From positions 343,098 to 390,676 of the forward strand of contig NZ_LT732526.1 of the NCBI RefSeq assembly GCF_900155545.1: a stretch of DNA of 47,579 nucleotides. Direction: 5' to 3'. Below, in pieces: positions 4,221 to 47,078 of the stretch; within the stretch, counting starts at the first letter, position 1, and each line of letters opens with the position of its first letter. The translations under genes and the position numbers were made by a program. Below the pieces are notes generated by a model, which saw only the letters and a program-made list of their open reading frames with translations, had not been told where the DNA came from and searched no databases. This stretch comes from Clostridium sp. Marseille-P2415 (GTDB taxonomy: Bacteria; Bacillota; Clostridia; Lachnospirales; Lachnospiraceae).

Positions 4221-5087
4221 ATGGTCATATCGGAAAGCAAAAACCAAAATCACAGCGAGGAAAGCATGAAAAAAGGCGTAGGGTTAATCAATGAGATAAA
4301 CCGGTGCATGCCGGTTCCCGGAGAGGCGGCAATCTGGTGGCTGGGCCAGATGGGCTTTGCAGTAAAGCTGGGAGATAAAACGCTTTATCTGGATGCTTTC
4401 TTATCCGGGCAGCCGGACAGGAAGGTCCCTCCCTTGCTAAAGCCCGAGGAAGTGACAAATGCGGACTATTTCTTTGGCAGTCATGACCATAAGGACCATA
4501 TCGACAGGGAAATCTGGCATCAGCTGTCAGTCAGTTCTCCAAATGCAAAATTCATAGTTCCCAGGCTGCTGGTCCATTCTCTTTCCCACGATCTTAACAT
4601 TAAGGAGGACCGGTTCATCGGACTTGATGATGGAATGACGCTTCAGCTGACAGATCATATCAGAATATCAGGGATTGCTGCCGCCCATGAATTCCTTGAC
4701 AGGGATCCGGCTACGGGCGCATACCCATATCTGGGCTGCGTGATAGAAGGAAACGGCTGCCTCCTGTACCATTCCGGTGACACCTGTATTTATGAAGGTC
4801 TGTACGGCAAGCTTAAGAAATTCGGGGAAATTGATGTAATGTTCCTTCCCATCAATGGACGGGACGCCAGGAGATACAGGGAAAATATCATTGGGAATAT
4901 GACATATCAGGAAGCAGTAGATATGGCCGGTACTTTAAAGCCCGGCCTTGTCATTCCGGCGCACTATGAGATGTTTGATAAAAACAAGGAAGACCCGGCG
5001 CTTTTTGCGGATTACATTACGGCCAAATATCCTGGCATATGCTATTGGATCGGCGGGCATGGGGAAAGGATCCTTCATAAGCGCTGA
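4221..5087 (+). CDS. MBL-fold metal-dependent hydrolase, UlaG-like
   Basis: The 288-residue protein carries the metallo-beta-lactamase signature SHDHKDHID near residue 91. Downstream metal-ligand candidates are AAHEFLD, YHSGDTCIYEG, and the C-terminal PAHYEMF and GHGER. The IWWLGQMGFAVKLGDKTLYLDAF start is typical of the UlaG (L-ascorbate-6-phosphate lactonase) branch. It should be a cytoplasmic metal-dependent hydrolase; the substrate is not known and ascorbate genes are absent here. GAAAGGTGG precedes the ATG. It follows the AraC gene by about 110 bases on the same strand, so it may be that regulator's target, which is inference. Confidence 0.8.
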   Translation: MVISESKNQNHSEESMKKGVGLINEINRCMPVPGEAAIWWLGQMGFAVKLGDKTLYLDAFLSGQPDRKVPPLLKPEEVTNADYFFGSHDHKDHIDREIWHQLSVSSPNAKFIVPRLLVHSLSHDLNIKEDRFIGLDDGMTLQLTDHIRISGIAAAHEFLDRDPATGAYPYLGCVIEGNGCLLYHSGDTCIYEGLYGKLKKFGEIDVMFLPINGRDARRYRENIIGNMTYQEAVDMAGTLKPGLVIPAHYEMFDKNKEDPALFADYITAKYPGICYWIGGHGERILHKR

Positions 5088-5168
5088 GCCGTTTAAAAAT
5101 TGAATATCCGGAATTGGGAAGAAAATCACCGGGAGCCTTTGTTATAATATCAGCAGGGAGGTGAAAGC

Positions 5169-5624
5169 TTGTACTTTGAATATGGCAGTAAGGAAACGGA
5201 GTATTTGAAAAAGAAAGACAAGCTGCTTGGTGCGGCGATCGACCGGATCGGACATATTGAACGGGCCGTGGACTGCAGCCTGTTTTCATCGGTGGTCCAT
5301 CATATCATCGGACAGCAGATTTCCACCAGCGCTCAGGGGCTTTCTGCTTTGAAAGGGATCGGTGTATGGACGGCTGAAATGATCATGACATTCTGCATGC
5401 AGCGCCCGGATGTTGTAAGCTTTGGGGATCTTGCCATTCACAGGGGAATGCGCATGCTGTACCATCACAGAAGCATTGACCGGAAAAAGTTTGAGAAATA
5501 CGCGAAAAGGTATTCCCCCTATGGCACGGTGGCCAGTTTATACCTCTGGGCCATTGCCGGAGGCGCGGTTCCGGAAATGAGGGATTATGCACCCAAAAAG
5601 AAAAAGGAGACAGAAATGGGATGA
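5169..5624 (+). CDS. alkA: DNA-3-methyladenine glycosylase II, internally deleted
   Basis: The first gene of a repair cassette encodes an HhH-GPD base-excision glycosylase. The start MYFEYGSKETEYLKKKDK, the IGQQIS stretch near 47-52, the helix-hairpin-helix LKGIGVWTAEM (61-71) and the catalytic Asp87 in SFGDLAIHRG are all present. Only about ten residues separate IGQQIS from the HhH. Family members of this type are near 200 residues long and have a block of roughly 60 residues between those motifs. This 151-residue product therefore appears to carry an in-frame internal deletion and may be inactive. Translation probably starts at TTG 5169, eight bases after AGGGAGG. Its stop overlaps the start of adaA (ATGA). 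Confidence 0.8.
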   Translation: MYFEYGSKETEYLKKKDKLLGAAIDRIGHIERAVDCSLFSSVVHHIIGQQISTSAQGLSALKGIGVWTAEMIMTFCMQRPDVVSFGDLAIHRGMRMLYHHRSIDRKKFEKYAKRYSPYGTVASLYLWAIAGGAVPEMRDYAPKKKKETEMG

Positions 5625-6169
5625 CGGAAGAGGAAATGTGGAGGGAGGTAATCGAAAACGATGAATCCTATGACGGCATCTTTTTCTATGCAGTAAAATC
5701 CACAGGAATCTATTGCCGTCCTTCCTGCAGATCAAAGAGGCCGAAACAGGAAAATATATGTTTTTTTGAAACTGCAAAAGAAGCAAGGGATGCCGGCTTT
5801 TGCCCATGCAAGCGGTGCAGAAGCGATCTTTTCGATTACCAGCCTATGAAGGAAATTGCAGAAAAAGCAAAGCAGCTGCTGGAGCAGTCGTTTCATAAGA
5901 GACTGGAACTGGACCGGAAGTTAAAAGACATGGGAATTTCCCTGCGCCGCATGGCTGAAATATTTAAAGAGGAATACGGGATCACTTTGTTTGAGTATGT
6001 GGGGCGCCTGCGTTTGGCAGAAGCGAAACGGCTTCTGTCGGATACGGATGACGGGATCATTGATGTTGCATATTCTGCAGGATTTAATGGAGTGTCTTCC
6101 TTTTACCGCTTTTTTAAGAACCGGACAGGCATGTCACCTGCCAGATACAGGAAGGAGCATCGTATATGA
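5621..6169 (+). CDS. adaA: AdaA: methylphosphotriester-DNA methyltransferase and activator
   Basis: The 182-residue protein combines an Ada-type zinc domain (about 1-75) with an AraC-type DNA-binding domain (about 80-180). The four zinc Cys are present with correct spacing: Cys32 and Cys36 in YCRPSC, Cys63 and Cys66 in CPCKRC. In the family the first accepts a methyl group from DNA phosphotriesters and turns the protein into an activator. The second HTH (IIDVAYSAGFNGVSSFYRFFK) and the MSPARYRK end are standard. It overlaps alkA by four bases (ATGA) and ogt by four bases (ATGA), so the three genes are translationally coupled as an adaptive-response operon. Confidence 0.92.
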   Translation: MTEEEMWREVIENDESYDGIFFYAVKSTGIYCRPSCRSKRPKQENICFFETAKEARDAGFCPCKRCRSDLFDYQPMKEIAEKAKQLLEQSFHKRLELDRKLKDMGISLRRMAEIFKEEYGITLFEYVGRLRLAEAKRLLSDTDDGIIDVAYSAGFNGVSSFYRFFKNRTGMSPARYRKEHRI

Positions 6170-6621
6170 AACGGTACGGATTTTATGATTTTAAATTTGG
6201 AATTCTGAAAATTGGATATACCGATACGGCAATCGTATTTTTGAAGAAAGTGGATGAAATCGATGCCCAAAATGAACGTTCCGCGCTTTCGGATCTGGCT
6301 TATGACCAGGTATGCCGGTATCTGAAAGGAGAGCGAAGGTCCTTTGATTTCCCATACGAACTGGAGGGTACGGATTTTCAGAAAAAGGTCTGGGGCGCTC
6401 TCTGCCGGATTCCTTATGGAGAAACACGTACATACAAACAGATCGCAGAGGCTGTGGGAAATCCAAAGGCCGGCCGGGCTGTTGGCATGGCCAATAACAA
6501 AAACCCTGTTACCATCGCTGTTCCGTGCCATCGGGTGGTCGGGACGGACGGCAGCCTGATTGGCTATGCAGGCGGCCTGGAAATGAAAAAGACCCTGCTT
6601 GCGCTTGAAAAAGGACTTTGA
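6166..6621 (+). CDS. ogt: Methylated-DNA-protein-cysteine S-methyltransferase
   Basis: The 151-residue suicide methyltransferase repairs O6-methylguanine by moving the alkyl group onto its own Cys. The active-site PCHRV places the acceptor at Cys121. The upstream helix-turn-helix GETRTYKQIAEAVGNPKAGRAVG and the NKNPVTIAVP segment are family hallmarks. Length is normal for Ogt/AdaB proteins with a short N-terminal domain. The gene starts in the ATGA overlap with adaA, so AdaA probably induces it together with alkA. Confidence 0.93.
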   Translation: MKRYGFYDFKFGILKIGYTDTAIVFLKKVDEIDAQNERSALSDLAYDQVCRYLKGERRSFDFPYELEGTDFQKKVWGALCRIPYGETRTYKQIAEAVGNPKAGRAVGMANNKNPVTIAVPCHRVVGTDGSLIGYAGGLEMKKTLLALEKGL

Positions 6622-6729
6622 AGTTTATAATTTTGTATGTAAAAATATACAAAAAAGTTGAAATAAATGTAGCATTTGCTGGATTATTGAATATATTTAT
6701 TATAGTGAAATAGGAAAGGAAATGCGTAT

Positions 6730-7299
6730 ATGGCTATTAAAATATTTATCGATCAAGGTCACAACCCCAGCGGATTTTTTAACAGTGGTGCGGAAGCCAA
6801 TGGCCTTTTTGAATCGGAGATAAATTTCCAGGTGGGACTGTATTTACAGAATCTGTTAAATAATGATCCCAGGTTTGAGGCCCGTGTGTCAAGGCCGGAA
6901 CCTGACACCGTATTGGGAACAAATAATACCACCAGTCTGGCAGCAAGAGTTGGGATGGCCAATGATTGGCCGGCCGATTATTTTATCAGCATTCACTGCA
7001 ACTTAAATCCGAATCCTGCAATCAATGGGACAGAGGTATATATTTATCAATTTTTTACACAAGCTCAATGGCTGGCGGAGCAGATCATGACCGGAGTGAC
7101 CCAGATGGTGGGAACGAGAAATAATGGGATCAGAGAAAACCCGTCTTTGTATGTTTTGAGAAATGCGGATATGCCGGCTAATCTTATTGAAATGGGATAT
7201 TTGAGCAATCTGTCGGATGCCGAGAAATTACGTGATGACCAGTACGGATTTGCTTATGGCATTTATCTGGGGTTCATGAGATATTTTGGTTTTGCATAA
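6730..7299 (+). CDS. N-acetylmuramoyl-L-alanine amidase (Amidase_3)
   Basis: A 189-residue stand-alone catalytic domain. The zinc site is visible: His11 in IDQGHNP, Glu28 or Glu30 in GLFESE and His89 in ISIHCNLN. The catalytic Glu154 lies in LIEMGYLSN. The enzyme cleaves the amide between muramic acid and the peptide stem of peptidoglycan. There is no signal peptide or cell-wall binding domain, unlike exported autolysins. It may therefore be released by lysis, leave by a non-classical route, or act in the mother cell like other cytosolic Clostridial amidases. A GGAAAGGAA site precedes the ATG. No neighbouring phage genes were seen. Confidence 0.88.
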   Translation: MAIKIFIDQGHNPSGFFNSGAEANGLFESEINFQVGLYLQNLLNNDPRFEARVSRPEPDTVLGTNNTTSLAARVGMANDWPADYFISIHCNLNPNPAINGTEVYIYQFFTQAQWLAEQIMTGVTQMVGTRNNGIRENPSLYVLRNADMPANLIEMGYLSNLSDAEKLRDDQYGFAYGIYLGFMRYFGFA

Positions 7300-7418
7300 T
7301 ATTTTCTGGAAATTTAAGGCATTTAATGCTATGATAATGTCACATAATTATAAAGGCCAAGTATAAAAATATTATACTAGAGGAAAATATAGAGTGAGAC
7401 AATAAGGAGGACATTATC

Positions 7419-8000
7419 ATGAATCATTTGATCGTTTTTGCGCATCCAAATCCAAACAGTTTTGGAAAAGGAATCGTTGATGCGGCAGTAAAAGCTTCAG
7501 AAGAAAAAGGAGCAAACGTTGAGGTCAGGGATCTGTACGCGATGGGCTTTGATCCAATTCTCAAACCGTCGGATTTTGAAGCCTTTCAAAGCGGAAAAAT
7601 TCCGGAAGATATCCTGACAGAACAGAAATATATTAAATGGGCCGATGTTATTACCTTTATTCATCCGATCTGGTGGTCTGCACAGCCTGGCATAATGAAG
7701 GGGTATGTTGACCGGGTATTCTCCAATGGATTTGCCTATGAATATGTCGATGGCGCAGCCCATGGCCTTCTTTCCGGAAAGAAAGGGATGGTTTTTGCGA
7801 CAAGCGGTTCGCCGAACGAAGCTTATGAAGCAAACGGCATGCATCATTCCATGAAGCAGATCACAGATCAGGGAATTTTTCATTTCTGCGGTGTGGAAGA
7901 AGTAAAGCATACCTTCTACGGAGCAGTTCCCTATGTGACAGAGGAAACCCGTAAAGATTATCTGAAGGAAGTTGCCGAAATCGTAAAAGGCATTCTGTAA
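7419..8000 (+). CDS. NAD(P)H-dependent flavin oxidoreductase (flavodoxin-like, quinone reductase type)
   Basis: The 193-residue protein has the flavodoxin_2 fold. The FMN/FAD phosphate loop is FAHPNPNSFGKGI (about 6-18). The IHPIWWSAQPGIMKGYVDRVFSNGFAYEY motif, here split over two strands, is the diagnostic region of KefF/MdaB/YwrO-type reductases. The later FATSGSPNEAY and a C-terminal FCGVEEVKHTFYGAVPY fit. It reduces quinones or other electrophiles in the cytoplasm with NAD(P)H. A perfect AAGGAGG lies before the ATG, and a hairpin terminator follows. Confidence 0.88.
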   Translation: MNHLIVFAHPNPNSFGKGIVDAAVKASEEKGANVEVRDLYAMGFDPILKPSDFEAFQSGKIPEDILTEQKYIKWADVITFIHPIWWSAQPGIMKGYVDRVFSNGFAYEYVDGAAHGLLSGKKGMVFATSGSPNEAYEANGMHHSMKQITDQGIFHFCGVEEVKHTFYGAVPYVTEETRKDYLKEVAEIVKGIL

Positions 8001-8013
8001 TACTTAAATTCAT

Positions 8014-8076
8014 AAAATAAGGAGTTTTTGTAAAATGAACGGAAGCGTTGATATTACAATGGCTCCTTTTTTATTT
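8014..8076 (+). terminator. Intrinsic terminator after the flavin oxidoreductase
   Basis: The outer stem AATAAGGAG pairs with CTCCTTTTTTATT, and TTGTAA/TTACAA pair inside it. The T-rich run lies at 8067-8076. The long loop makes it less compact than usual. Confidence 0.6.
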
Positions 8077-8145
8077 TACAGGAAAGCTCTCACTCCGTGC
8101 AGGATGCGCATGACGCTTAAGGGGAAGATGTCAAAAAACTTCTTC

Positions 8146-8174
8146 TTGTCCTTCCATTAAAAATTTTGTATAAT
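8146..8174 (+). promoter_or_regulatory. Sigma-A promoter of the first LacI gene
   Basis: TTGTCC (8146-8151) and TATAAT (8169-8174) are spaced by 17 bases, about 46 bases before the ATG at 8220. Confidence 0.7.
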
Positions 8175-8176
8175 CA

Positions 8177-8211
8177 TAAACAGATATATGAAAGTTCATA
8201 AAAACTGTTTA
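8177..8211. promoter_or_regulatory. Inverted repeat in the first LacI leader (possible operator)
   Basis: TAAACAG (8177-8183) and CTGTTTA (8205-8211) are perfect inverted 7-mers separated by 21 bases, directly downstream of the -10 box. It could be an autoregulatory site or an mRNA hairpin. It does not resemble the operator found before the next two units. Confidence 0.35.
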
Positions 8212-8219
8212 AAGAATGG

Positions 8220-9233
8220 ATGGAGAAAATGAAAGTAAGTGTACGGAAAATCAGTGAAGTGACGGGCTTTTCACCGGCAACCGTGTCCAATGCATTAAAC
8301 CGTAAAAAAGGAGTGAATAAAGAAACTGCGGAAAAGATTTTTGAAGCAGCCGAAAAACTTGGATATCATTCCGGGGAGAAGATTACCAAAATTAAATTTG
8401 TCATGTTCAGAAGGAATGGCCTGATCATTGATGACAGTGCTTTTCACCCTGCTGTGATCGAAGGGGTGGAGAAGCAGGCAAAGGAAATGGGGTATGAGAC
8501 GGTGTTCACTTATGTGGATATCAGCGATCCGGAAAGCTGCAGTCAGATCAAAGGCATTACGGAAGACACCAGTGCGGCGGTGGTACTTCTTGGGACTGAG
8601 ATGCTGGAAGAGGATTTTAAACTGTTCGCAGATGCAAAATGCCACATCATACTTCTCGACGGCTGGAGCGATATCTTCTTTTTCGATGCGGTTTTAATCA
8701 GCAATACCGATGCGGCCTGCCGGGCCATGGAATACCTTGTTGAAAAAGGACACAGGAGGATCGGATATATCGGCGGTGATTTCAGGATCCAGGCTTTTAA
8801 ATACAGGGAGATCGGATACAGGAGGGTTATGGAAAAATACCGTCTGCCTGTAGAGGACAAATATCAGGTTCTGGTGGGGACGAAGATCGAGACTGCTTAT
8901 GAGAAGATGAAAGAGTATCTGGAACATAACAACGAATTGCCGACAGCTTTTTTTTCGGACAATGATATTATAGCAATCGGTGCAATGCGGGCTCTTCAGG
9001 AAAAAGGCTACCGGATTCCGGAAGACGTTTCTGTTGTCGGGTTTGATGATTTAAATTTCGGTCTGGTTTCCAATCCGCCTCTGACCACAGTTCATGTATA
9101 CAAAAGGGAGATGGGGGAAATTGCGGTTCGGGAGCTGGCAGAGGCTATGCAGAATAAGAATAAAATGAAATGTAAAATACAGGTCTGTACGGAGTTTATC
9201 GAGCGCGGGAGCGTGAGGGATGTGGTTCAATAG
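8220..9233 (+). CDS. LacI family transcriptional regulator (complete)
   Basis: The protein has a normal LacI layout: an N-terminal helix-turn-helix (ISEVTGFSPATVSNALNRK), the hinge helix (EAAEKLGYH), then a periplasmic-binding-like effector domain from about residue 60. The effector part contains FFSDNDIIAIGAMRALQEKG and DVSVVGFDDLNFGL, the usual C-subdomain marks. It would bind a sugar and control the downstream sugar operon. Two in-frame ATGs (8220, 8229) are possible; GGAG at 8222-8225 is rather close to the second, so the start is uncertain by three codons. Its effector domain is collinear with that of the next gene, so the two are tandem paralogues. Confidence 0.9.
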   Translation: MEKMKVSVRKISEVTGFSPATVSNALNRKKGVNKETAEKIFEAAEKLGYHSGEKITKIKFVMFRRNGLIIDDSAFHPAVIEGVEKQAKEMGYETVFTYVDISDPESCSQIKGITEDTSAAVVLLGTEMLEEDFKLFADAKCHIILLDGWSDIFFFDAVLISNTDAACRAMEYLVEKGHRRIGYIGGDFRIQAFKYREIGYRRVMEKYRLPVEDKYQVLVGTKIETAYEKMKEYLEHNNELPTAFFSDNDIIAIGAMRALQEKGYRIPEDVSVVGFDDLNFGLVSNPPLTTVHVYKREMGEIAVRELAEAMQNKNKMKCKIQVCTEFIERGSVRDVVQ

Positions 9234-9250
9234 AAAATGAAAGATTTGTA

Positions 9251-9284
9251 AACCGGCTGTTTTGGGATGAACAGCCGGTTTTTT
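9251..9284 (+). terminator. Intrinsic terminator after the first LacI gene
   Basis: A perfect 11-bp stem (AACCGGCTGTT with AACAGCCGGTT, 8-nt loop) is followed by a run of six T. This separates the two LacI paralogues into different transcripts. Confidence 0.88.
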
Positions 9285-9344
9285 GTATGCACCGGGAAAT
9301 GTTTAGTAAAAAATTATATGCATTATTTATGCCTGGATAACAAT

Positions 9345-9370
9345 AAGGAGGACGAATGAGGGAGAAATAA
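9345..9370 (+). other. Orphan ribosome site with a four-codon ORF
   Basis: A perfect AAGGAGG (9345-9351) is placed four bases before ATG AGG GAG AAA TAA (9356-9370, MREK). It has no continuing reading frame. It may be a vestige of the start of a lost gene end, such as the missing DNA-binding part of the next LacI paralogue, but the reading after it shows no HTH remnant. Confidence 0.3.
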
Positions 9371-9431
9371 GTGGAATTAGGAAGAAAATAAACGATATAT
9401 AGATAATTTCGGGTGAAAATCAAAAAAAATA

Positions 9432-9459
9432 TTGAAATATTTATATAAACGTTTATAAT
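9432..9459 (+). promoter_or_regulatory. Promoter with palindromic operator, second LacI paralogue
   Basis: TTGAAA (9432-9437) and TATAAT (9454-9459) are spaced by 16 bases. A perfect 14-bp palindrome, TATAAACGTTTATA (9444-9457), with the central CG typical of LacI-family operators, covers the spacer and most of the -10. The same TTTATA-N6-TTTATAAT arrangement recurs before the isomerase gene at 10599-10618. Confidence 0.75.
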
Positions 9460-9505
9460 GAAATCAGGAATAAAACATGGAATGCTTTTGGGAAGGGAGA
9501 GGGCG

Positions 9506-10453
9506 ATGAAAATAAGTTCAAACGAGGGACGGGCTGCTAAGATCCGGTTTGTTACCTTCCGGAAAAATGGGCTGATCATTGATGAGAATCCTTTCTTTGC
9601 GGAACTGATCCAGGGGGTGGAAATGCAGGCCAGGGAATATGGGTATGAGACCACCTTTATCTATCTGAATTATGAATCTCAGGAGTTTTATGGCCAGCTT
9701 GCCGGTGTACTGGAGGATGTGTCATCTTTTCTGGTTCTTCTGGGGACGGAGATGATGGAAGAAGATTTTTTGTTATTTCAGGGTTTTAAAGGGGATATGG
9801 TTTTGGTGGACTGCTGGAGCGATACGGTCACTTTTGACGCGGTATTGATAAATAATACGGATTCTGCATATCATGCGGTCCGTTATCTGATCGACAGGGG
9901 CCATAAGGTCATCGGCTATCTGAGAGGCTGTTACAGGATCAAGGCATTTGAATACAGGGAATATGGCTATTGCAGGGCGCTTAAGGAAGCGGGGTTAAAG
10001 GAACATCCGGAATATGAGATTACCCTCGGGACTCAGCTAAAGACAGCTTATGAGGGGATGATGGAATATCTGGAAAGCCATGAAAAAGAGCTTCCGGATG
10101 GGTTTTTTGCGGACAATGATCTGATTGCCATGGGAGCGATCCGGGCATTGCAGGAAAAGGGATATAAGATACCGGAAGATGTGTCCGTTGTTGGGTTTGA
10201 CGATGTGAAATTTGGAGTGGTATCAAATCCGGGGCTGACTACGGTGCATGTGTTCAAGGAAGAAATGGCCAGAATGGCAGTCCGCAGAGTATTGGATAAG
10301 GCTAGGCATCCGGCCGGCGGGATCATGACAAAGATACAGGTAGAAACCAGGTTTGAGGAAAGAGAAAGCGTAGCAGATAAAAACAGGATAAGCCATGACC
10401 TTTTACAAACAGAGCTATATAAACATTCATATGAAAAAAATAATAATGGTTGA
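9506..10453 (+). CDS. LacI-type sugar-sensing protein lacking the DNA-binding domain
   Basis: About 316 residues, starting directly at the effector domain (KIRFVTFRKNGLIIDENPFF). Nothing resembling a LacI helix-turn-helix or hinge precedes it. The rest aligns by eye with the complete paralogue just upstream (LVLLGTEMMEEDF, VSVVGFDDVKFGVVSNP). I chose ATG 9506 because AGGGAGAGGG sits just before it; the in-frame ATGs at 9458 and 9482 would add only a few unrelated residues and no HTH. No signal peptide is present, so it is not an exported binding protein. It may form mixed dimers with the full repressor or act as a ligand buffer, which is inference. Confidence 0.85.
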   Translation: MKISSNEGRAAKIRFVTFRKNGLIIDENPFFAELIQGVEMQAREYGYETTFIYLNYESQEFYGQLAGVLEDVSSFLVLLGTEMMEEDFLLFQGFKGDMVLVDCWSDTVTFDAVLINNTDSAYHAVRYLIDRGHKVIGYLRGCYRIKAFEYREYGYCRALKEAGLKEHPEYEITLGTQLKTAYEGMMEYLESHEKELPDGFFADNDLIAMGAIRALQEKGYKIPEDVSVVGFDDVKFGVVSNPGLTTVHVFKEEMARMAVRRVLDKARHPAGGIMTKIQVETRFEERESVADKNRISHDLLQTELYKHSYEKNNNG

Positions 10454-41304: not shown

Positions 41305-42012
41305 TTAATAATAAATCTGCCGGTGACCGTCAATGCTCTCCTGCAGGGAGCGTTTCAAATAACTGACCGCTCCGGAAAAGTCCCGTTCTTCAATATGGGT
41401 ACAAAGTTCATTTGTATTTTCATACAGTGCAGGAACTCCGTATAATGCGCAAAAGCGCAGCCACAGGGTACAGGTCAGTGATTTAAAAGAACGAAAGATT
41501 AACGGCAGCAGGGAATTGCCGGAAAACAGCGCAAGATGATGATGAAATGAAAATGCCTGATCTACGGCGTATTCCGGGTGATTGATACGGCCGATTTCTT
41601 CGGTGAAGGCGCGAAGCTGTGCGATTTCCTGATCCGTGATGCGCGCCGCAAAAAGTTCGATGGCCAGCGTATCCAGAGCAATACGGAGCTCTAAAATGGA
41701 ACGGACTTCCTCTCGCCGCAAGATGCCGCCATTATAATTAACGATTGATAAAAAGGTGTCAATGGTACCATCCTTCCGGTAATCGGCTACAAAAATACCT
41801 AAGCGTGGACGGATCACGAGAAAACCCTTGCCGGCCAGTTCTGCGATTCCGGCGTTGACCACCGAGCGGCTGACCTGCATGGATGAGGCAAGTTCCCTCT
41901 CGGGAGGAAGTCTGGTGCCCACCGGCAGGCGGCCGGAGAGAATGTAAGACTCCAGTTCTTTTATAAAAAGTTCTTTCAATGTAGGTGCGCTAAGCTTTCT
42001 GAATTCCATCAT
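41305..42012 (-). CDS. FadR-subfamily (FCD) GntR transcriptional regulator
   Basis: The 235-residue protein has a GntR wHTH (LPPERELASSMQVSRSVVNAG, split, then GKGFLVIRPRLGIFV) and an all-helical FCD sensor from about residue 95. The sensor contains the metal/ligand His/Asp pattern RSILELRIALDTL, FHHHLALFSGN and CTHIEERD. Such regulators sense carboxylates such as lactate, glycolate or gluconate. Its gene is divergent from the DUF5692-hypB-oxidoreductase-hypA operon. Two perfect TGGTATGACCA boxes lie between them, so it very probably represses both itself and that operon. Confidence 0.9.
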   Translation of the reverse strand: MMEFRKLSAPTLKELFIKELESYILSGRLPVGTRLPPERELASSMQVSRSVVNAGIAELAGKGFLVIRPRLGIFVADYRKDGTIDTFLSIVNYNGGILRREEVRSILELRIALDTLAIELFAARITDQEIAQLRAFTEEIGRINHPEYAVDQAFSFHHHLALFSGNSLLPLIFRSFKSLTCTLWLRFCALYGVPALYENTNELCTHIEERDFSGAVSYLKRSLQESIDGHRQIYY

Positions 42013-42043
42013 AAATGATCCCCCGCTGCTATTTTATTGTCAC

Positions 42044-42054
42044 TGGTATGACCA
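42044..42054. promoter_or_regulatory. FCD-GntR operator, copy 1
   Basis: TGGTATGACCA, the TGGT-N3-ACCA inverted repeat typical of FadR-family regulators, lies 32 bases upstream of the regulator ATG. Confidence 0.8.
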
Positions 42055-42149
42055 ATGACCACAACCATTATTTTACAGTTATCCTATACAAAAAGCAAGG
42101 GCTAAATCTGTTGAATATCCTGATTTTAGAACAATATATCAAATCGTCT

Positions 42150-42179
42150 TTGACATTCAAATTAAGAAAGCGTTAAAAT
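42150..42179 (+). promoter_or_regulatory. Promoter of the DUF5692-hypB-hypA operon
   Basis: TTGACA (42150-42155) and TAAAAT (42174-42179) are spaced by 18 bases. Operator copy 2 lies about 15 bases past the expected start site. Confidence 0.68.
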
Positions 42180-42199
42180 ATAAACAAATATTTTACTTT

Positions 42200-42210
42200 T
42201 GGTATGACCA
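42200..42210. promoter_or_regulatory. FCD-GntR operator, copy 2
   Basis: An identical TGGTATGACCA, just downstream of the rightward promoter and 40 bases before the membrane-protein gene. The position suits a roadblock or promoter-occluding repressor. Confidence 0.8.
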
Positions 42211-42249
42211 GAAGAAGTCGCCAAAGGTTTACATGATGGAGGTATGAAA

Positions 42250-43251
42250 ATGTTTGTATTTCATTATGGTGAGGGAGCTTCCCTCAGTTCTTCGCTGCTT
42301 GCATGGCTTTGTGTTTTTGCTGCGTTATTCCTTTTCAATGAGGTGTCCCGCCGTTATAAGGTCATGGGGGTCCTTTTTTTTGTTGTGATGCCGGTTGTTT
42401 TATCGGCCCTTTGGTTCACGGTTTTGAGAAAGAGAACCTATACCGACTGGTTCCACCTTGCCAAGGTCTATTCTGCAACAGCGGGCTGCATCGGCTTTTG
42501 GCTGATCCGCTATTTTGTGAGAAAACGCAGGGATGGAACGGTCTGGCGTCTTGCCGACAGCCGCATTGCACTGTGTTTCCCGCCTTTGATACTGGCTGTT
42601 AACATCCTGGAGGCTGTTACCCGGGATATACAAGTGGGAATTACCTGTCAATTGATGTCACAGGAGGTGACCGCTGACGTGCCGGTTCTTCTGATGGGAG
42701 GTCCCTGGAATTTTATGAATGCGGCTGCAGGACTGCTTAATATCGTCACCATAACCGGGTGGTCCGGCATCTGTCTCCGTAAGGTTACGAAAAAAGACGG
42801 CAGCCGGGATATGCTCTGGCCGGATATGCTGTGGTTCTGGATTGCAGCTTACGATCTGTGGAATTTTGCTTACACCTATAACTGCCTGCCCCATCATGCG
42901 TGGTATTGCGGCCTTGCCCTGCTGCTGGCACCCACCGTCTGCTCATTTACCATTGGAAAAGGGGCATGGCTGCAGCACCGGGCGCATACGCTGGCATTGT
43001 GGTGCATGTTTGCCCAGACGTTTCCGATGTTTCAGGATACCGGACGCTTCCGGGTCGATTCCACCTATAATCCAGGGATTTATTTTGCAGTCAGCCTGAC
43101 CGCATTGCTGTTCAATGCCGGCGTTACAATTTATATGGTTTACAAAGCACGAAAGAGTCACCGGAACCCTTATACCCAGGAACTCTATATTGATTTAAAA
43201 GCCTATCATACCGTAAAAATTCTGGCAGAAGAATCAGCAGCGGCAAGATAA
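42250..43251 (+). CDS. DUF5692-type multi-span membrane protein
   Basis: A roughly 333-residue protein with about eight membrane spans (LAWLCVFAALFLFNEVS, VMGVLFFVVMPVVLSALWF, ALCFPPLILAVNILEA, LWFWIAAYDLWNFAYTY, GLALLLAPTVCSFTIG). Short loops carry WNFMNAAAGLLN and HHAWYCG. It resembles the DUF5692 family as I remember it; the function is unknown. His/Trp-rich loops (NCLPHHAWYC) might bind a metal or cofactor. As first gene of the operon with hypB and hypA it could be a transporter or a membrane partner of the oxidoreductase. ATG 42250 has GGAGG seven bases upstream; ATG 42244 is too close. Confidence 0.72.
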   Translation: MFVFHYGEGASLSSSLLAWLCVFAALFLFNEVSRRYKVMGVLFFVVMPVVLSALWFTVLRKRTYTDWFHLAKVYSATAGCIGFWLIRYFVRKRRDGTVWRLADSRIALCFPPLILAVNILEAVTRDIQVGITCQLMSQEVTADVPVLLMGGPWNFMNAAAGLLNIVTITGWSGICLRKVTKKDGSRDMLWPDMLWFWIAAYDLWNFAYTYNCLPHHAWYCGLALLLAPTVCSFTIGKGAWLQHRAHTLALWCMFAQTFPMFQDTGRFRVDSTYNPGIYFAVSLTALLFNAGVTIYMVYKARKSHRNPYTQELYIDLKAYHTVKILAEESAAAR

Positions 43252-43272
43252 CAGAAAGGAGGAGAAACGGGC

Positions 43273-43938
43273 ATGAATGACTTACGAATACTGGAGATCA
43301 AAAAGAGCGTGTACGCAGATAATGACCGTGAGGCAGATAAACTGCGGTGTGAGCTGAAAGAGCAGGGCGTATTTCTGCTTAACTTAATGTCCTCTCCCGG
43401 AGCGGGGAAGACAACAACTCTGCGGGGGACCCTGGAACGGTTGAAACATGAGTTTTCCATCGGAGTTATGGAAGCGGACATTGATTCTGATGTAGATGCG
43501 CGTGCCATAGAAGAGACCGGTGTAAAGGTCATACAGCTGCACACCGGCGGTATGTGTCATCTGGATGCAGGCATGACGAGGCAGGGGCTTACAGGCCTTG
43601 GCACAGTTGGGCTTGACCTCGCTATTCTGGAAAATGTGGGAAACCTTGTCTGCCCGGCTGAGTTTGATACCGGAGCGGTGAAAAACGCCATGATTTTGTC
43701 AGTGCCGGAGGGGGACGACAAACCGCTTAAATATCCGCTCATGTTCAGCGTCTGCCAGGTGGTCCTGATCAATAAAATTGATGTGCTGCCTTATTTTGAT
43801 TTCAATCTTAAAGCAGTACGTGAACGGATCAGGGAGCGGAACCCAGGTGCAAAAGTGATCCCGATTTCCGCCCGTACCGGAGAAGGAATGGACGAATGGG
43901 CCGGCTGGCTGCGCGATGAGGTAAGGAGGTTCCTTTGA
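43273..43938 (+). CDS. hypB: Nickel-insertion GTPase HypB
   Basis: The 221-residue GTPase helps deliver nickel to metalloenzymes. The P-loop SSPGAGKTTT is at 40-49, with EADIDSDVDA as switch and NKID plus SAR as guanine-specific motifs. The metal site at the dimer interface is intact: Cys95-His96 (GGMCHLDAG) and Cys127 (NLVCPAEFD) have the same spacing as Cys166-His167 and Cys198 of the E. coli protein. The N-terminal CxxCGC high-affinity motif is absent, as in many HypB. It lies 21 bases after the membrane protein. No hydrogenase genes are in the window. Confidence 0.92.
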   Translation: MNDLRILEIKKSVYADNDREADKLRCELKEQGVFLLNLMSSPGAGKTTTLRGTLERLKHEFSIGVMEADIDSDVDARAIEETGVKVIQLHTGGMCHLDAGMTRQGLTGLGTVGLDLAILENVGNLVCPAEFDTGAVKNAMILSVPEGDDKPLKYPLMFSVCQVVLINKIDVLPYFDFNLKAVRERIRERNPGAKVIPISARTGEGMDEWAGWLRDEVRRFL

Positions 43939-43940
43939 AT

Positions 43941-46682
43941 ATGGCTGAAAAAACAATAAAACCTTCCACCGTGGACAGAAATGAAAAATACATCGGGAAT
44001 CCTAAAATTCTTGCTTTGGCAAATCACATTGGACGAAAGAAACCGGGGGCGAAAGACGCTTATGATTACAATGCACCCGAATACCGGATCCTGGAGCCGG
44101 TAGTTACCGATTCCATGGCTGATATCTGCATGGCCATGGCCATTCGCGAGAAGGTAACTGCCGAAACGGTTGCGGGACGCTTAAAGAAACCGGCAGAGGA
44201 ATGCCACCGGCTCCTTCTGGAGCTTGCGGATATTGGCGTGTGCTTTGTCAATACCATAGAAGGAAAGGATACCTTCTGGTATGATACCTGGGTACCGGGC
44301 ATTATGGAGATGATGACAAATCACCCCACCAATCCCATCAGGTATCCGCAGATCCCAGAGGCATTTGAAGCCTACGGCCGCATCCGCGGCGGAAAGACCG
44401 CAGGAATGACACCGGTGGGAATCGGCCTCATGCGGGTGATCCCTATTGAAAAAGCCATAAGCGGCGAGAGCCGCCGGGCTTCCTATGAAGAGTTATCAAA
44501 GCATATTGATGAGCATGACATTTTTTCCGTGTCCAACTGTTCCTGCCGTACGGTGCGGGAGATCATGGGAGAGGGCTGCGGACATTTAAAGGAGGATATG
44601 TGCATCCAGATGGGGCATGCAGCCGAATATTACATACGGACCGGGCGGGGAAGAAAGGTGGAAAAAGAAGAAGTCTGCCAGATCCTGCACCGGGCAGAGG
44701 AAAACGGCCTGATGCATGAGATACCGAACCTGGACGGAGACGGCAGGACTCACGCCATCTGCAACTGCTGCGGATGCGGCTGTCTTTCCATGCGGACCGC
44801 ACAGATGTTTCTGAATGCCGATATGGTCCGGTCAAACTATATCTCACAGATTGACCGGGAAAAATGTGTGGCCTGCGGACAATGTGTGGAAAACTGCCCG
44901 GTCAATGCACTTGTGCTCGGCCAGAAGATCTGTTCAACAAAGCCGGTGATAAACAGGATCGTACGTGAGGAAACACCCCGGAATACGGAATGGACGCCGG
45001 AGCGCTGGAATACAGAGTACCGCACCAACCGGAAAAATGTTGTTGATACCGGCACTTCTCCCTGTAAAACCCAATGCCCTGCGCACATTGCAGTACAGGG
45101 ATACATAAAGCTTGCCGCCCAGGGACGGTATACCGAAGCACTGGAACTGATTAAAAAGGAAAACCCGTTCCCTGCTGTCTGCGGAAGCATCTGTAACCGC
45201 CGGTGTGAATCGGCCTGTACCCGGGGAGACATTGATGAACCCGTAGCAATTGATGAGATTAAAAAATTTATCGCTTATCAGGACTTAAATGAAGCCCGTT
45301 GTTTTGTTCCGGAAAAACGCCACAGCTATGGCCGGCCCATAGCTGTGGTCGGAGCAGGTCCGGCCGGCCTTTCCTGTGCCTATTTTCTTGCAGTGGATGG
45401 ATATAAGGTGACCGTGTTTGAAAAGGAAAAGGAGCCAGGCGGGATGCTGATGATGGGAATCCCGTCCTTCCGTTTGGGAAAAGACGTGGTTCATGCAGAA
45501 ATCAATGTACTCCGCAAGCTGGGCGTGGAATTCAAAACAGGCGTGGAAGTGGGAAGGGATATTACCATCGGGCAGCTGCGCAGACAGGGATTTGAGGCTT
45601 TTTACCTGGCAATCGGCGCTCAGGAAGGCCGCGGTCTTGGGATAGAAGGCGAAGAAGCCGGGGGGGTATATTCCGGCATTGATTTTATCCGCCGTATAAA
45701 CCGTCTGGAAGATGTGAAGCTGTTTGGGAAGGCCATTGTGATCGGCGGCGGAAACGTGGCAATAGATGTTGCGCGCACGGCTGCCCGTGCGGAGGCTGAA
45801 AACGTGGAGCTTTACTGTCTTGAGAGCCCGGAGGAAATGCCGGCCTCACATGATGAACTGGAGGAGGCAAAGGAAGAAAACATAGGGATTCATAATGGCT
45901 GGGGCCCGGTCCGGATTATTGCGGAAAACGGACGGGTTACGGGGGTTGAGTTCCGGCGCTGTGTATCGGTGTTTGATAAAAACGGCCGTTTTACGCCTGT
46001 GTTCGATGATCGTGATACTATGATAGCGGAAGCTGACTGGGTATTGCTTTCCGTCGGTCAGACCATAAGCTGGGGCAATCTGCTTAAAGGCACAGGGATT
46101 GTCTGCAATCCTGACGGTACCATAAAGGCCGACCCCTTTACTTACCAGACTGATGAGCCGGATATCTTTGCCGGCGGAGACGCGTTTACCGGCCCCGGAT
46201 TTGCCATTGATGCGATTGCGGCGGGTAAGCAGGGAGCGGTTTCCATCCACCGGTTTGTACAGCCGGGCCAGAGCCTCGTCATTGGACGGGACCGCCGTGA
46301 ATATAAGTCCCTGGATAAAGATTCCCTTGTATTGGAGACCTATGACCGCATGCCCCGTCAGAAGGTCAGACAAAAGGCAAATCCTCACAGCTTCTCCGAT
46401 GAACGCGGTACCTTTACCGAAGAGCAGGTACAAAAAGAGACGGAACGCTGCCTGGGCTGCGGGGCCGCAGTGGTGGATGAATTCCTGTGCGTAGGCTGCG
46501 GCCAGTGTACCACCAAGTGTAAATTTGATGCAATCTCACTGATACGCCGATATGACGGGGAAGGCGTATCCCTGCTGGATATGAAAAAAGCGGTTTTGCC
46601 CCATGTGGTAAAACGCAGAGCGAAAATAACCATGAAAAAAATTCGTAAGGCAATGAGCAGACAGGAGGCGTTCCATGCATGA
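43941..46682 (+). CDS. Multi-domain Fe-S/FAD NAD(P)-binding oxidoreductase (GltD-like core)
   Basis: A 914-residue protein with three parts. The N-terminal third has a helical region, an NCSCR pair near 200, the dense Cys cluster CNCCGCGC near 274-281 and one ferredoxin motif CVACGQCVENCP near 309. The middle is a GltD-type module: Cys-rich CKTQCPAHIAVQGYI (375 on), VCGSICNRRCESAC, FAD loop VVGAGPAGLSCAYFL near 469, NAD(P) loop VIGGGNVAIDVARTA near 600 and FAGGDAFTGPGFAIDAIAAG. The C-terminus has CLGCG near 837 and CVGCGQCTTKCKFDAI. It should move electrons between NAD(P)H and an Fe-S partner. It lies between hypB and hypA, overlapping hypA by eight bases. ATG 43941 is preferred; TTG 43935 is possible. 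Confidence 0.85.
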   Translation: MAEKTIKPSTVDRNEKYIGNPKILALANHIGRKKPGAKDAYDYNAPEYRILEPVVTDSMADICMAMAIREKVTAETVAGRLKKPAEECHRLLLELADIGVCFVNTIEGKDTFWYDTWVPGIMEMMTNHPTNPIRYPQIPEAFEAYGRIRGGKTAGMTPVGIGLMRVIPIEKAISGESRRASYEELSKHIDEHDIFSVSNCSCRTVREIMGEGCGHLKEDMCIQMGHAAEYYIRTGRGRKVEKEEVCQILHRAEENGLMHEIPNLDGDGRTHAICNCCGCGCLSMRTAQMFLNADMVRSNYISQIDREKCVACGQCVENCPVNALVLGQKICSTKPVINRIVREETPRNTEWTPERWNTEYRTNRKNVVDTGTSPCKTQCPAHIAVQGYIKLAAQGRYTEALELIKKENPFPAVCGSICNRRCESACTRGDIDEPVAIDEIKKFIAYQDLNEARCFVPEKRHSYGRPIAVVGAGPAGLSCAYFLAVDGYKVTVFEKEKEPGGMLMMGIPSFRLGKDVVHAEINVLRKLGVEFKTGVEVGRDITIGQLRRQGFEAFYLAIGAQEGRGLGIEGEEAGGVYSGIDFIRRINRLEDVKLFGKAIVIGGGNVAIDVARTAARAEAENVELYCLESPEEMPASHDELEEAKEENIGIHNGWGPVRIIAENGRVTGVEFRRCVSVFDKNGRFTPVFDDRDTMIAEADWVLLSVGQTISWGNLLKGTGIVCNPDGTIKADPFTYQTDEPDIFAGGDAFTGPGFAIDAIAAGKQGAVSIHRFVQPGQSLVIGRDRREYKSLDKDSLVLETYDRMPRQKVRQKANPHSFSDERGTFTEEQVQKETERCLGCGAAVVDEFLCVGCGQCTTKCKFDAISLIRRYDGEGVSLLDMKKAVLPHVVKRRAKITMKKIRKAMSRQEAFHA

Positions 46683-47016
46683 GTTGGGTATTATCGCTGA
46701 GGTAGTGCGCGTGGTAGAGAATATCGCCCGCGAGCAGCAGCTGACAAAGGTGGAAACGCTGGTGCTGCAGATCGGCGAGCTGGCTTCGGTGGTACCTTAT
46801 TATGTGGAGCAGTGTTATCCCGCCGCTGTTTACGGCACGCTGCTGGAAAACACCCGTCTGGAGATTGAAATCATTCCGGGAAATGGACGATGCTGCCAAT
46901 GCGGTAAAGTATTCCATGTCCTGGAGAACTTACATAAATGCCCTGTTTGCGGGAGTACTTCCTGGGAATTGCTTGGCGGACGGGAGTTTATGATTAAAGA
47001 AATTGTGGCCTGTTAA
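46675..47016 (+). CDS. hypA: Nickel metallochaperone HypA
   Basis: The 113-residue protein starts MHELGI, where His2 and Glu3 help bind nickel. It carries a zinc site from CCQCG (73-76) and CPVCG (89-92), matching the two CxxC pairs of HypA/HybF. It partners with HypB to load nickel. It overlaps the oxidoreductase gene by eight bases and is the last gene of the operon. Length and all metal ligands are normal. Confidence 0.93.
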   Translation: MHELGIIAEVVRVVENIAREQQLTKVETLVLQIGELASVVPYYVEQCYPAAVYGTLLENTRLEIEIIPGNGRCCQCGKVFHVLENLHKCPVCGSTSWELLGGREFMIKEIVAC

Positions 47017-47026
47017 TGGAGTGCAG

Positions 47027-47078
47027 AAAAGCCGGTGTAAGGAGTTGATTTTTATCAAACTTTTATGCTGGCTTTTTT
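47027..47078 (+). terminator. Terminator of the hyp operon
   Basis: AAAAGCC (47027-47033) pairs with GGCTTTT (47070-47076), with an inner TTGAT/ATCAA stem, and ends in six T. Confidence 0.7.

Follow-up and report, generated by a model that had tools for sequence, protein, structure and literature searches.

Which protein do the nickel chaperones HypA and HypB serve where no hydrogenase gene lies beside them? The question is raised by an operon in a 47,579-nucleotide stretch of the genome of Clostridium sp. Marseille-P2415 (contig NZ_LT732526.1), referred to in the following as the window. On its forward strand, a gene for a DUF5692 protein is followed by hypB, the gene for a large Fe-S/FAD oxidoreductase, here called OX, and hypA; a GntR gene of the FCD type is divergent from them on the reverse strand (Table 1). 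Profile searches of the window's reading frames confirmed this compact operon of the original prediction, which had been made from the letters of the DNA. The hypB, OX and hypA frames overlap, and 21 bases separate the end of the DUF5692 gene from hypB. The operon itself contains no hypC, hypD, hypE or hypF and no hydrogenase subunit, and all matches to the hydrogenase large subunit and hypD lay elsewhere in the genome, in agreement with the predicted absence of a hydrogenase from the window. The operon looks like a DUF5692- and GntR-containing variant of the IsrA-like oxidoreductase family and most likely encodes a nickel-dependent double-bond reductase; unsaturated fatty acids lead among the candidate substrates. 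The fuller proposal, to which we give about an even chance, is a nickel-dependent C=C reductase operon whose substrate is probably an unsaturated or conjugated fatty acid, and in which DUF5692 would handle this membrane-borne compound.

A set of 393 genomes from the order ("drawn evenly", completeness of at least 90 requested) was surveyed for the genes, with cut-offs of E ≤ 1e-35 for hypB, E ≤ 1e-20 for hypD and E ≤ 1e-30 for the OX N-terminal domain. DUF5692 was found in 73 genomes, hypB in 121, hypD in 99 and OX in 88, of which 86 were kept; the two weak OX matches that were dropped (432-residue frames in G044 and G108, E ≈ 1e-34) both fell in genomes with hypB and hypD, leaving the partition unchanged. 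Every genome with OX had hypB (86/86), and every genome with DUF5692 had OX (73/73). Among the 294 genomes without hypD, OX and hypB were both present in 38, from 26 genera, one alone in none and neither in 256; 256 of the 393 had none of the four genes. The three genes OX, hypB and hypD occurred together in 48 genomes, and hypB and hypD without OX in 35. The cross-tabulation thus shows that hypB occurs only in genomes having hypD or OX, and it led us to reject HypA and HypB as leftovers or pure hydrogenase accessories. When OX-containing genomes with hypD and a single hypB were considered, hypB was located within 2 kb of OX in 18 of 19, the exception being G350, and in those where the genes shared a contig no hypB lay within 57 kb of hypD. 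A conserved HypA/HypB system therefore exists independently of hypD, and the hydrogenase is neither its primary client nor what keeps hypB; the earlier suggestion of a non-hydrogenase client is well supported. At the cut-off used, 16 of the 393 genomes had hypD without hypB, apparently a case of hydrogenase maturation without HypB. Several genomes carried a tandem hypB pair (G138:C19:34053-35341 and G193:C1:1794002-1795417; also G251, G348 and G379).

For the analysis of OX, 121 stretches were compared, of which 92 had an OX match above 400 bits; removal of one protein of 840 residues or fewer left 91 alignment rows, 89 of them different (L060 and L120, and L091 and L138, are the same contigs). 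Six cysteines in the N-terminal domain, referred to as Cys6, were invariant in all 91 rows. They include two CxC pairs, C202/C204 and C276/C278, spaced 74 residues apart. The original prediction had singled out the cluster CNCCGCGC as an unusual candidate metal site. The motif is real and occupies residues 276–283, but C279 and C281 are cysteine in just 52 of the 91 rows and fall outside the invariant six; because these two vary, CNCCGCGC was rejected as a special five-Cys motif. The first ≈300 residues of OX matched no Pfam family, and Fer4 was found in two stretches of the protein. In a search of the N-terminal domain against solved structures, the 60 listed of 119 matches fell mainly on its ferredoxin part. 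The structure model of OX had a mean pLDDT of 74.6, with segments below 50 that include residues 172–185, 308–351 and 843–867. The center and C-terminus resemble NfnABC, StnABC, NfnL, GltD and dihydropyrimidine dehydrogenase (DPD), and Foldseek hit NfnABC, StnABC, NfnL and DPD. The Nfn/Stn transhydrogenases, GltD and DPD share the same DPD-type 2×[4Fe-4S] plus FAD/NAD(P) module, at 27–36% identity among the 50 matches listed. To our knowledge, these proteins lack the N-terminal Cys6 domain and the HypA/HypB linkage.

The closest published parallel is IsrA, the putative isoprene reductase of the isr operon of Acetobacterium wieringae ISORED-2 (PMC10134865; here and below, statements refer to the available part of that paper). 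Like OX, IsrA is described as an oxidoreductase of ≈900 residues with Cys6, ferredoxin, DPD-type, FAD/NAD(P) and C-terminal ferredoxin parts, encoded in an operon with hypA and hypB. Its CxC pairs, Cys180/182 and Cys254/256, have the same 74-residue spacing, and its Cys6 site was proposed to be a cluster V reached via a substrate tunnel (PMC10134865). The features given for "clade 9" of the family were all found in OX, namely a length of ≈900 residues, DPD-type Fe-S and FAD/NAD(P) modules, two ferredoxin-type domains, Cys6 and linkage to hypA and hypB. By its architecture and Cys6 spacing, OX looks like an uncharacterised member of this IsrA-like clade 9, IsrA having been compared by its published description alone, and the window thus carries an apparent member of the family. 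As described, isr differs in having two hypA genes, a separate ferredoxin, no DUF5692 and a gaseous substrate (PMC10134865), whereas the window's operon has a single hypA, lacks a separate ferredoxin gene and comes with DUF5692 and FCD-GntR, in a genome with a NiFe hydrogenase.

The idea of nickel delivery put forward in the original prediction is not new in outline: PMC10134865 had already proposed that HypA and HypB deliver nickel to IsrA-type oxidoreductases, in a host without NiFe hydrogenase and hypCDEF. Among 988 IsrA homologues, the same paper gave frequencies of nearby genes of 0.73 for hypA, 0.56 for hypB, 0.40 for DUF5692 and 0.21 for TetR. Closest to the window in layout are the Acetobacterium cluster II operons of clade 9 (PMC10134865; also L128), in which DUF5692, hypB, OX and hypA lie on the same strand; the "hypothetical protein" of cluster II is DUF5692 by matching made here. 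These operons differ in that TetR replaces GntR and an oleate hydratase gene lies between DUF5692 and hypB. The OX of L128, from an A. woodii metagenome-assembled genome (MAG), is 55% identical to that of the window. The order-wide profile, the dependence of DUF5692 on OX and the neighbors pointing to fatty acids are what is new here; neither the hypD-less partition across the order nor the dependence of DUF5692 on OX was found in the available part of PMC10134865, the only paper in the literature searched that mentions DUF5692.

The predicted conservation of the four-gene order was borne out, with the unit recurring across families. The 40 stretches collected around DUF5692 (≈20 kb requested, four of them shorter at contig ends) came from 34 hypD-less DUF5692 genomes and 6 further ones. 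In many of these, hypB, OX and hypA stood together with DUF5692 before or after them; in others, DUF5692 stood apart and OX was elsewhere. Of the 80 named loci, which were the best 80 of 169 relatives, 69 held a full OX and 11 did not. Within four genes of OX there were hypA in at least 47 loci, hypB in at least 38, DUF5692 in at least 22 and this GntR in at least 16; the true numbers may be higher, because gene calling can miss hypA or hypB where an antisense frame covers them. Hosts among these best 80 were Clostridia, Erysipelotrichaceae, Spirochaetota and Collinsella, with a few records from Pseudomonadota and Desulfobacterales. Both chaperones of the window appear intact at their metal sites: the HypB ligands C95, H96 and C127 (CH...C type) were kept in 24 of 24 sequences, and HypA residues H2, E3, C73, C76, C89 and C92, comprising the MHE nickel site and the zinc CxxC pairs, in 22 of 22. 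At 76.1 bits against TIGR00100, below the equivalog cut-off of 88.1, the window's protein is, by its sequence, a divergent HypA.

The AlphaFold2 model of DUF5692 had a pLDDT of 89.7 and contained nine helices of at least 17 residues. Fold searches returned generic helical-bundle similarity only, and a search of solved structures gave a single match at chance level (E 0.11). Among 43 sequences, 37 positions were invariant, and no Cys or His was found at these or at near-invariant positions; DUF5692 was rejected as a metal protein on this ground. We infer a role for DUF5692 as a substrate-handling partner of OX. In L118, the protein encoded ahead of the OX cassette is a highly diverged DUF5692 member (9136-10008; E 1e-6 for this one, the one tested), with proteins of the same cluster in L108 and L113, and an AraC-type regulator lies nearby in L113 and L118. 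In L061:8732-13170 (G071), two DUF5692 genes flank genes for proteins of 384 and 338 residues; a homologue of the former had no Pfam match, and one of the latter is a metallophosphoesterase. In L093 (G204), the cassette by DUF5692 holds only a 202-residue piece of OX, and the full frame is on another contig.

Evidence on the substrate came from the neighbors of OX in related loci. An oleate hydratase gene was found 2–7 genes from OX in three loci. In L128, TetR, DUF5692, oleate hydratase, hypB, OX and hypA lie on one strand; in L095, from genome G312 of the window's own genus, GntR, a TetR_C_8 regulator and oleate hydratase are divergent from hypB-OX-hypA-DUF5692, with the hydratase five genes from OX; in L106, from Anaeromonas, there is again a TetR_C_8 regulator, with oleate hydratase seven genes from OX. 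A second family, a flavoprotein of 400–440 residues, lay within three genes of OX in seven distinct loci (eight rows, of which L060 and L120 come from the same contig), among them L106, where it is two genes away. The best solved relative by far of the two members tested was 2b9w, with E-values of 4e-22 and 3e-21 over nearly the full length. We take this structure to be the linoleate isomerase of P. acnes, a polyunsaturated fatty acid isomerase (PAI) that makes conjugated linoleate. On a quick LG+G4 tree of OX, the PAI and oleate hydratase linkages required three changes each, and the window's OX sat in a 37-row clade holding most rows with such linkage. After removal of duplicates, a fatty-acid neighbor was present within eight genes in 9 of 44 loci with DUF5692 versus 1 of 45 without (P 0.007, uncorrected for relatedness); the counts had been 10 of 46 versus 1 of 45 before removal, and the sole case without DUF5692 was a 167-residue fragment. 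A protein of 328–354 residues is encoded beside the PAI-like flavoprotein in L057, L060, L064, L106, L115, L117 and L158; in L117, the member tested, it matches helix-turn-helix domains and IS481-type transposases, and it may be a regulator or a mobile element. Tex, GlgB, MscS and exonuclease III neighbors look incidental.

In the mechanism that we propose, HypB and HypA would load nickel into OX at the Cys6 site of its N-terminal domain. The FAD would be reduced by NAD(P)H and electrons would travel via the [4Fe-4S] clusters to Cys6, where a C=C bond, either non-activated or conjugated, would be hydrogenated. DUF5692, as a multi-helix membrane protein, would present or conduct the membrane-soluble substrate to OX. 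The presence of oleate hydratase or the linoleate-isomerase-like flavoprotein near the operon in some relatives points to an unsaturated long-chain fatty acid, often a conjugated one, as the probable substrate. Formation of a conjugated diene followed by its hydrogenation would fit a relative of a reductase of isoprene, itself a conjugated diene. FCD-GntR would repress the operon from paired TGGTATGACCA operators until a carboxylate ligand arrived. The same kind of reaction is described for the membrane-associated, NADH-linked conjugated linoleate reductase of Butyrivibrio fibrisolvens, compared here by description; its sequence was reported in 2007, and according to the available part of a 2015 genomic paper (PMC4478896), it could not be surveyed owing to its absence from family databases.

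Several observations weigh against this proposal. Biochemistry for any DUF5692-type OX was not found in the literature searched, and IsrA itself is only a putative isoprene reductase (PMC10134865). The 393 genomes are related, so the profile is not 393 independent tests and a Fisher P is not to be taken literally; moreover, hypD served as a proxy for hydrogenase, whose subunits were searched for in the window's genome alone. No fatty-acid gene lies nearby in 79 of the 89 distinct OX loci, the PAI linkage belongs mostly to one clade (seven rows, six distinct), and the OX of G312, the oleate hydratase case from the window's genus, falls outside the window's clade. Searching the window, L017 and L018 with hmmsearch and profiles of the two fatty-acid genes gave weak matches to OX itself only, the whole genome not having been searched for oleate hydratase. 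In the same genus, the genes that come after the cassettes of G082, G157 and G247 resemble, by eye, those of a sugar ABC transporter. On the OX tree, the sequences from this genus also fall into three diverged types (the window; L095; L091, L092 and L094), and identity to the window's OX ranges from 44.5 to 75.7% across the rows, so that substrates may differ. The window's genome (G000) encodes two copies of carbon monoxide dehydrogenase (CODH) and one of LarA, with no urease, so other nickel clients are possible.

The divergence within OX is one argument for the alternative that OX is indeed the client and a C=C reductase, acting on another hydrophobic substrate such as a terpenoid or isoprenoid, a steroid or an aromatic acrylate. 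Isoprene was proposed for IsrA and terpenes were suggested for its homologues (PMC10134865), and the diverse neighborhoods, like the spread in identity, would suit such a reading. A single sentence in the available part of that paper refers to oleate hydratase, for two Acetobacterium species, and no discussion of fatty acids as substrates for IsrA homologues was found in that part. The repeated linkage to two families acting on fatty acids, in nearly all cases at DUF5692-type loci and once in the window's genus, speaks for fatty acids instead, and we consider the alternative unlikely, if well within reach. A different client altogether, with HypA and HypB loading an unlinked CODH, lactate racemase or urease and OX being co-regulated with that enzyme, would draw on the CODH and LarA genes of this genome. 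However, among the 38 hypD-less genomes with hypB, 10 had CODH, 2 had urease and 11 had LarA, and 20 had none of the three; glyoxalase I, nickel superoxide dismutase and acireductone dioxygenase were outside this survey. The CODH/ACS and lactate racemase operons of A. wieringae also carry their own maturation factors (PMC10134865). CODH, urease and LarA were each rejected in the role of a general client, and we find this explanation improbable. Slightly less probable still is that DUF5692 itself is a nickel protein or a nickel transporter feeding HypA and HypB: it is encoded with hypA and hypB in many loci and hypB is present in 73 of 73 DUF5692 genomes, but the protein has no conserved Cys or His, and 13 genomes with OX and hypB lack it. 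For the same two reasons, of the candidate clients named in the original prediction, the oxidoreductase is favored and DUF5692 is not.

Could HypA and HypB instead serve an unlinked NiFe hydrogenase, with OX and DUF5692 as mere co-transcribed neighbors or a redox aid to hydrogenase maturation? The original description of HypA and HypB without hydrogenase failed at the scale of the genome, which encodes NiFe hydrogenase large and small subunits, a maturation protease, hypF, hypD and hypE ≈450 kb from the window. The operon (L018:6011-14014) contains the protease gene, hypF, a hypC-like frame that we recognised by eye and presume to be HypC, hypD and hypE; a 139-residue protein without an NCBIfam match precedes the small subunit. 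The hypA and hypB models had no match at this locus. The window's hypB is the genome's sole match to TIGR00073 above the cut-off, and three hypA matches above the cut-off all lie within a repeated 2,390-bp block, with a fourth below it at 21.3 bits. Since hydrogenase and hypFCDE are present and no other hypA or hypB scores above the cut-off, the hydrogenase probably borrows the window's HypA and HypB, which would then also load this unlinked enzyme. As their sole role, this is contradicted by the genomes with OX and hypB that lack hypD, by the absence of any genome with OX and no hypB, and by the position of hypB beside OX rather than hypD in single-hypB genomes, and we give it little chance. 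A hydrogenase operon sharing the regulator, which the original prediction had named as evidence against itself, was not seen: no TGGTNNNACCA was present in the 20 kb around the hydrogenase, a weak test because 7 of the 15 regulator loci also lack such a site.

The nickel-dependent reductase proposal includes carboxylate control through the GntR protein. Its best NCBIfam match was PdhR, far under the PdhR cut-off, and its cluster had 15 members across the 41 stretches compared. A TGGTNNNACCA site was found upstream of the GntR gene in eight of these 15 loci, paired in six; the 41 stretches contained 40 such sites in total versus 8.2 expected from mononucleotide shuffles, and 26 of the 40 were located away from the GntR genes. 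In the window, the palindrome TGGTATGACCA is repeated exactly in the divergent gap, and matches with at most one mismatch numbered three versus 0.78 expected, a count reached by 3 of 100 shuffles. We presume the element to be PdhR-like. The paired TGGTATGACCA sites are putative operators, and with the FCD domain they make induction of the operon by a carboxylate plausible. The promoter between them should be read against a background of 11 promoter-like sites in the stretch versus 6.2 expected. The terminator predicted after hypA was recognised by eye as a stem and T run, but was not among the sites listed by a scanner that limits loops to 3–8 nucleotides.

Table 1. Features of the operon and its control region (window coordinates).
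Feature	Position	Strand	Details
FCD-type GntR repressor	41305..42012	-	PF00392 E 1.2e-13; PF07729 E 3.9e-11
Putative operator 1, TGGTATGACCA	42044..42054	.	Exact 11-mer, identical to operator 2
Sigma-70-like promoter, TTGACA-18-TAAAAT	42150..42179	+	11/12 consensus bases; in divergent gap
Putative operator 2, TGGTATGACCA	42200..42210	.	Exact 11-mer palindrome, directly 3' of promoter -10
DUF5692 multi-helix (probably membrane) protein	42244..43251	+	PF18948 E 1.3e-114
hypB, nickel GTPase chaperone	43273..43938	+	TIGR00073 235.6 bits vs cut-off 121.2
OX, IsrA-like Fe-S/FAD oxidoreductase, 915 aa	43935..46682	+	TTG start 43935; in-frame ATG 43941
Cys6 site of OX (C202, C204, C223, C276, C278, C283)	44538..44783	+	Proposed Ni/Fe-S cluster V
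DPD-type 2×[4Fe-4S] + FAD/NAD(P) domains of OX	45051..46226	+	PF14691 373-450; PF07992 469-764
C-terminal ferredoxin-type Cys set of OX, C839-C862	46449..46520	+	Cys in 90/91 rows, one gapped
hypA, nickel metallochaperone	46675..47016	+	PF01155 106.8 bits, above cut-off
Probable terminator, long-loop stem + T run	47029..47078	+	Read by eye, 3' of hypA

The repeated block consists of the OX end, hypA and the start of a PadR gene, and occurs three times in identical form (L017:287-2676, 4511-6900 and 7042-9431), with N gaps of 1,834 and 141 bases between the copies; L017 (G000:C9) runs from within the window to beyond its end. The triplication is either an assembly artefact or an unresolved tandem amplification.

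A broader proposal, which we hold tentatively and think more doubtful than the one for the window, is that the DUF5692-type IsrA homologues are the enzymes by which Clostridia of gut and sediment widely hydrogenate fatty acids under anaerobic conditions. As Ni-Fe-S proteins loaded by HypA and HypB, they would act at the membrane on acids derived from linoleate or oleate and saturate double bonds in these, whether conjugated or isolated. For annotation, the results caution that hypA and hypB without hypD need not signal a broken hydrogenase system. If true, the proposed activity would mean that plain C=C bonds are reduced by a nickel enzyme of a class new to biology, give HypA and HypB a hydrogenase-independent role in dozens of genera, and explain why hypB is retained in so many anaerobes that lack hypD. 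It would also provide a function for DUF5692 and a candidate family for the microbial biohydrogenation of dietary unsaturated fats.

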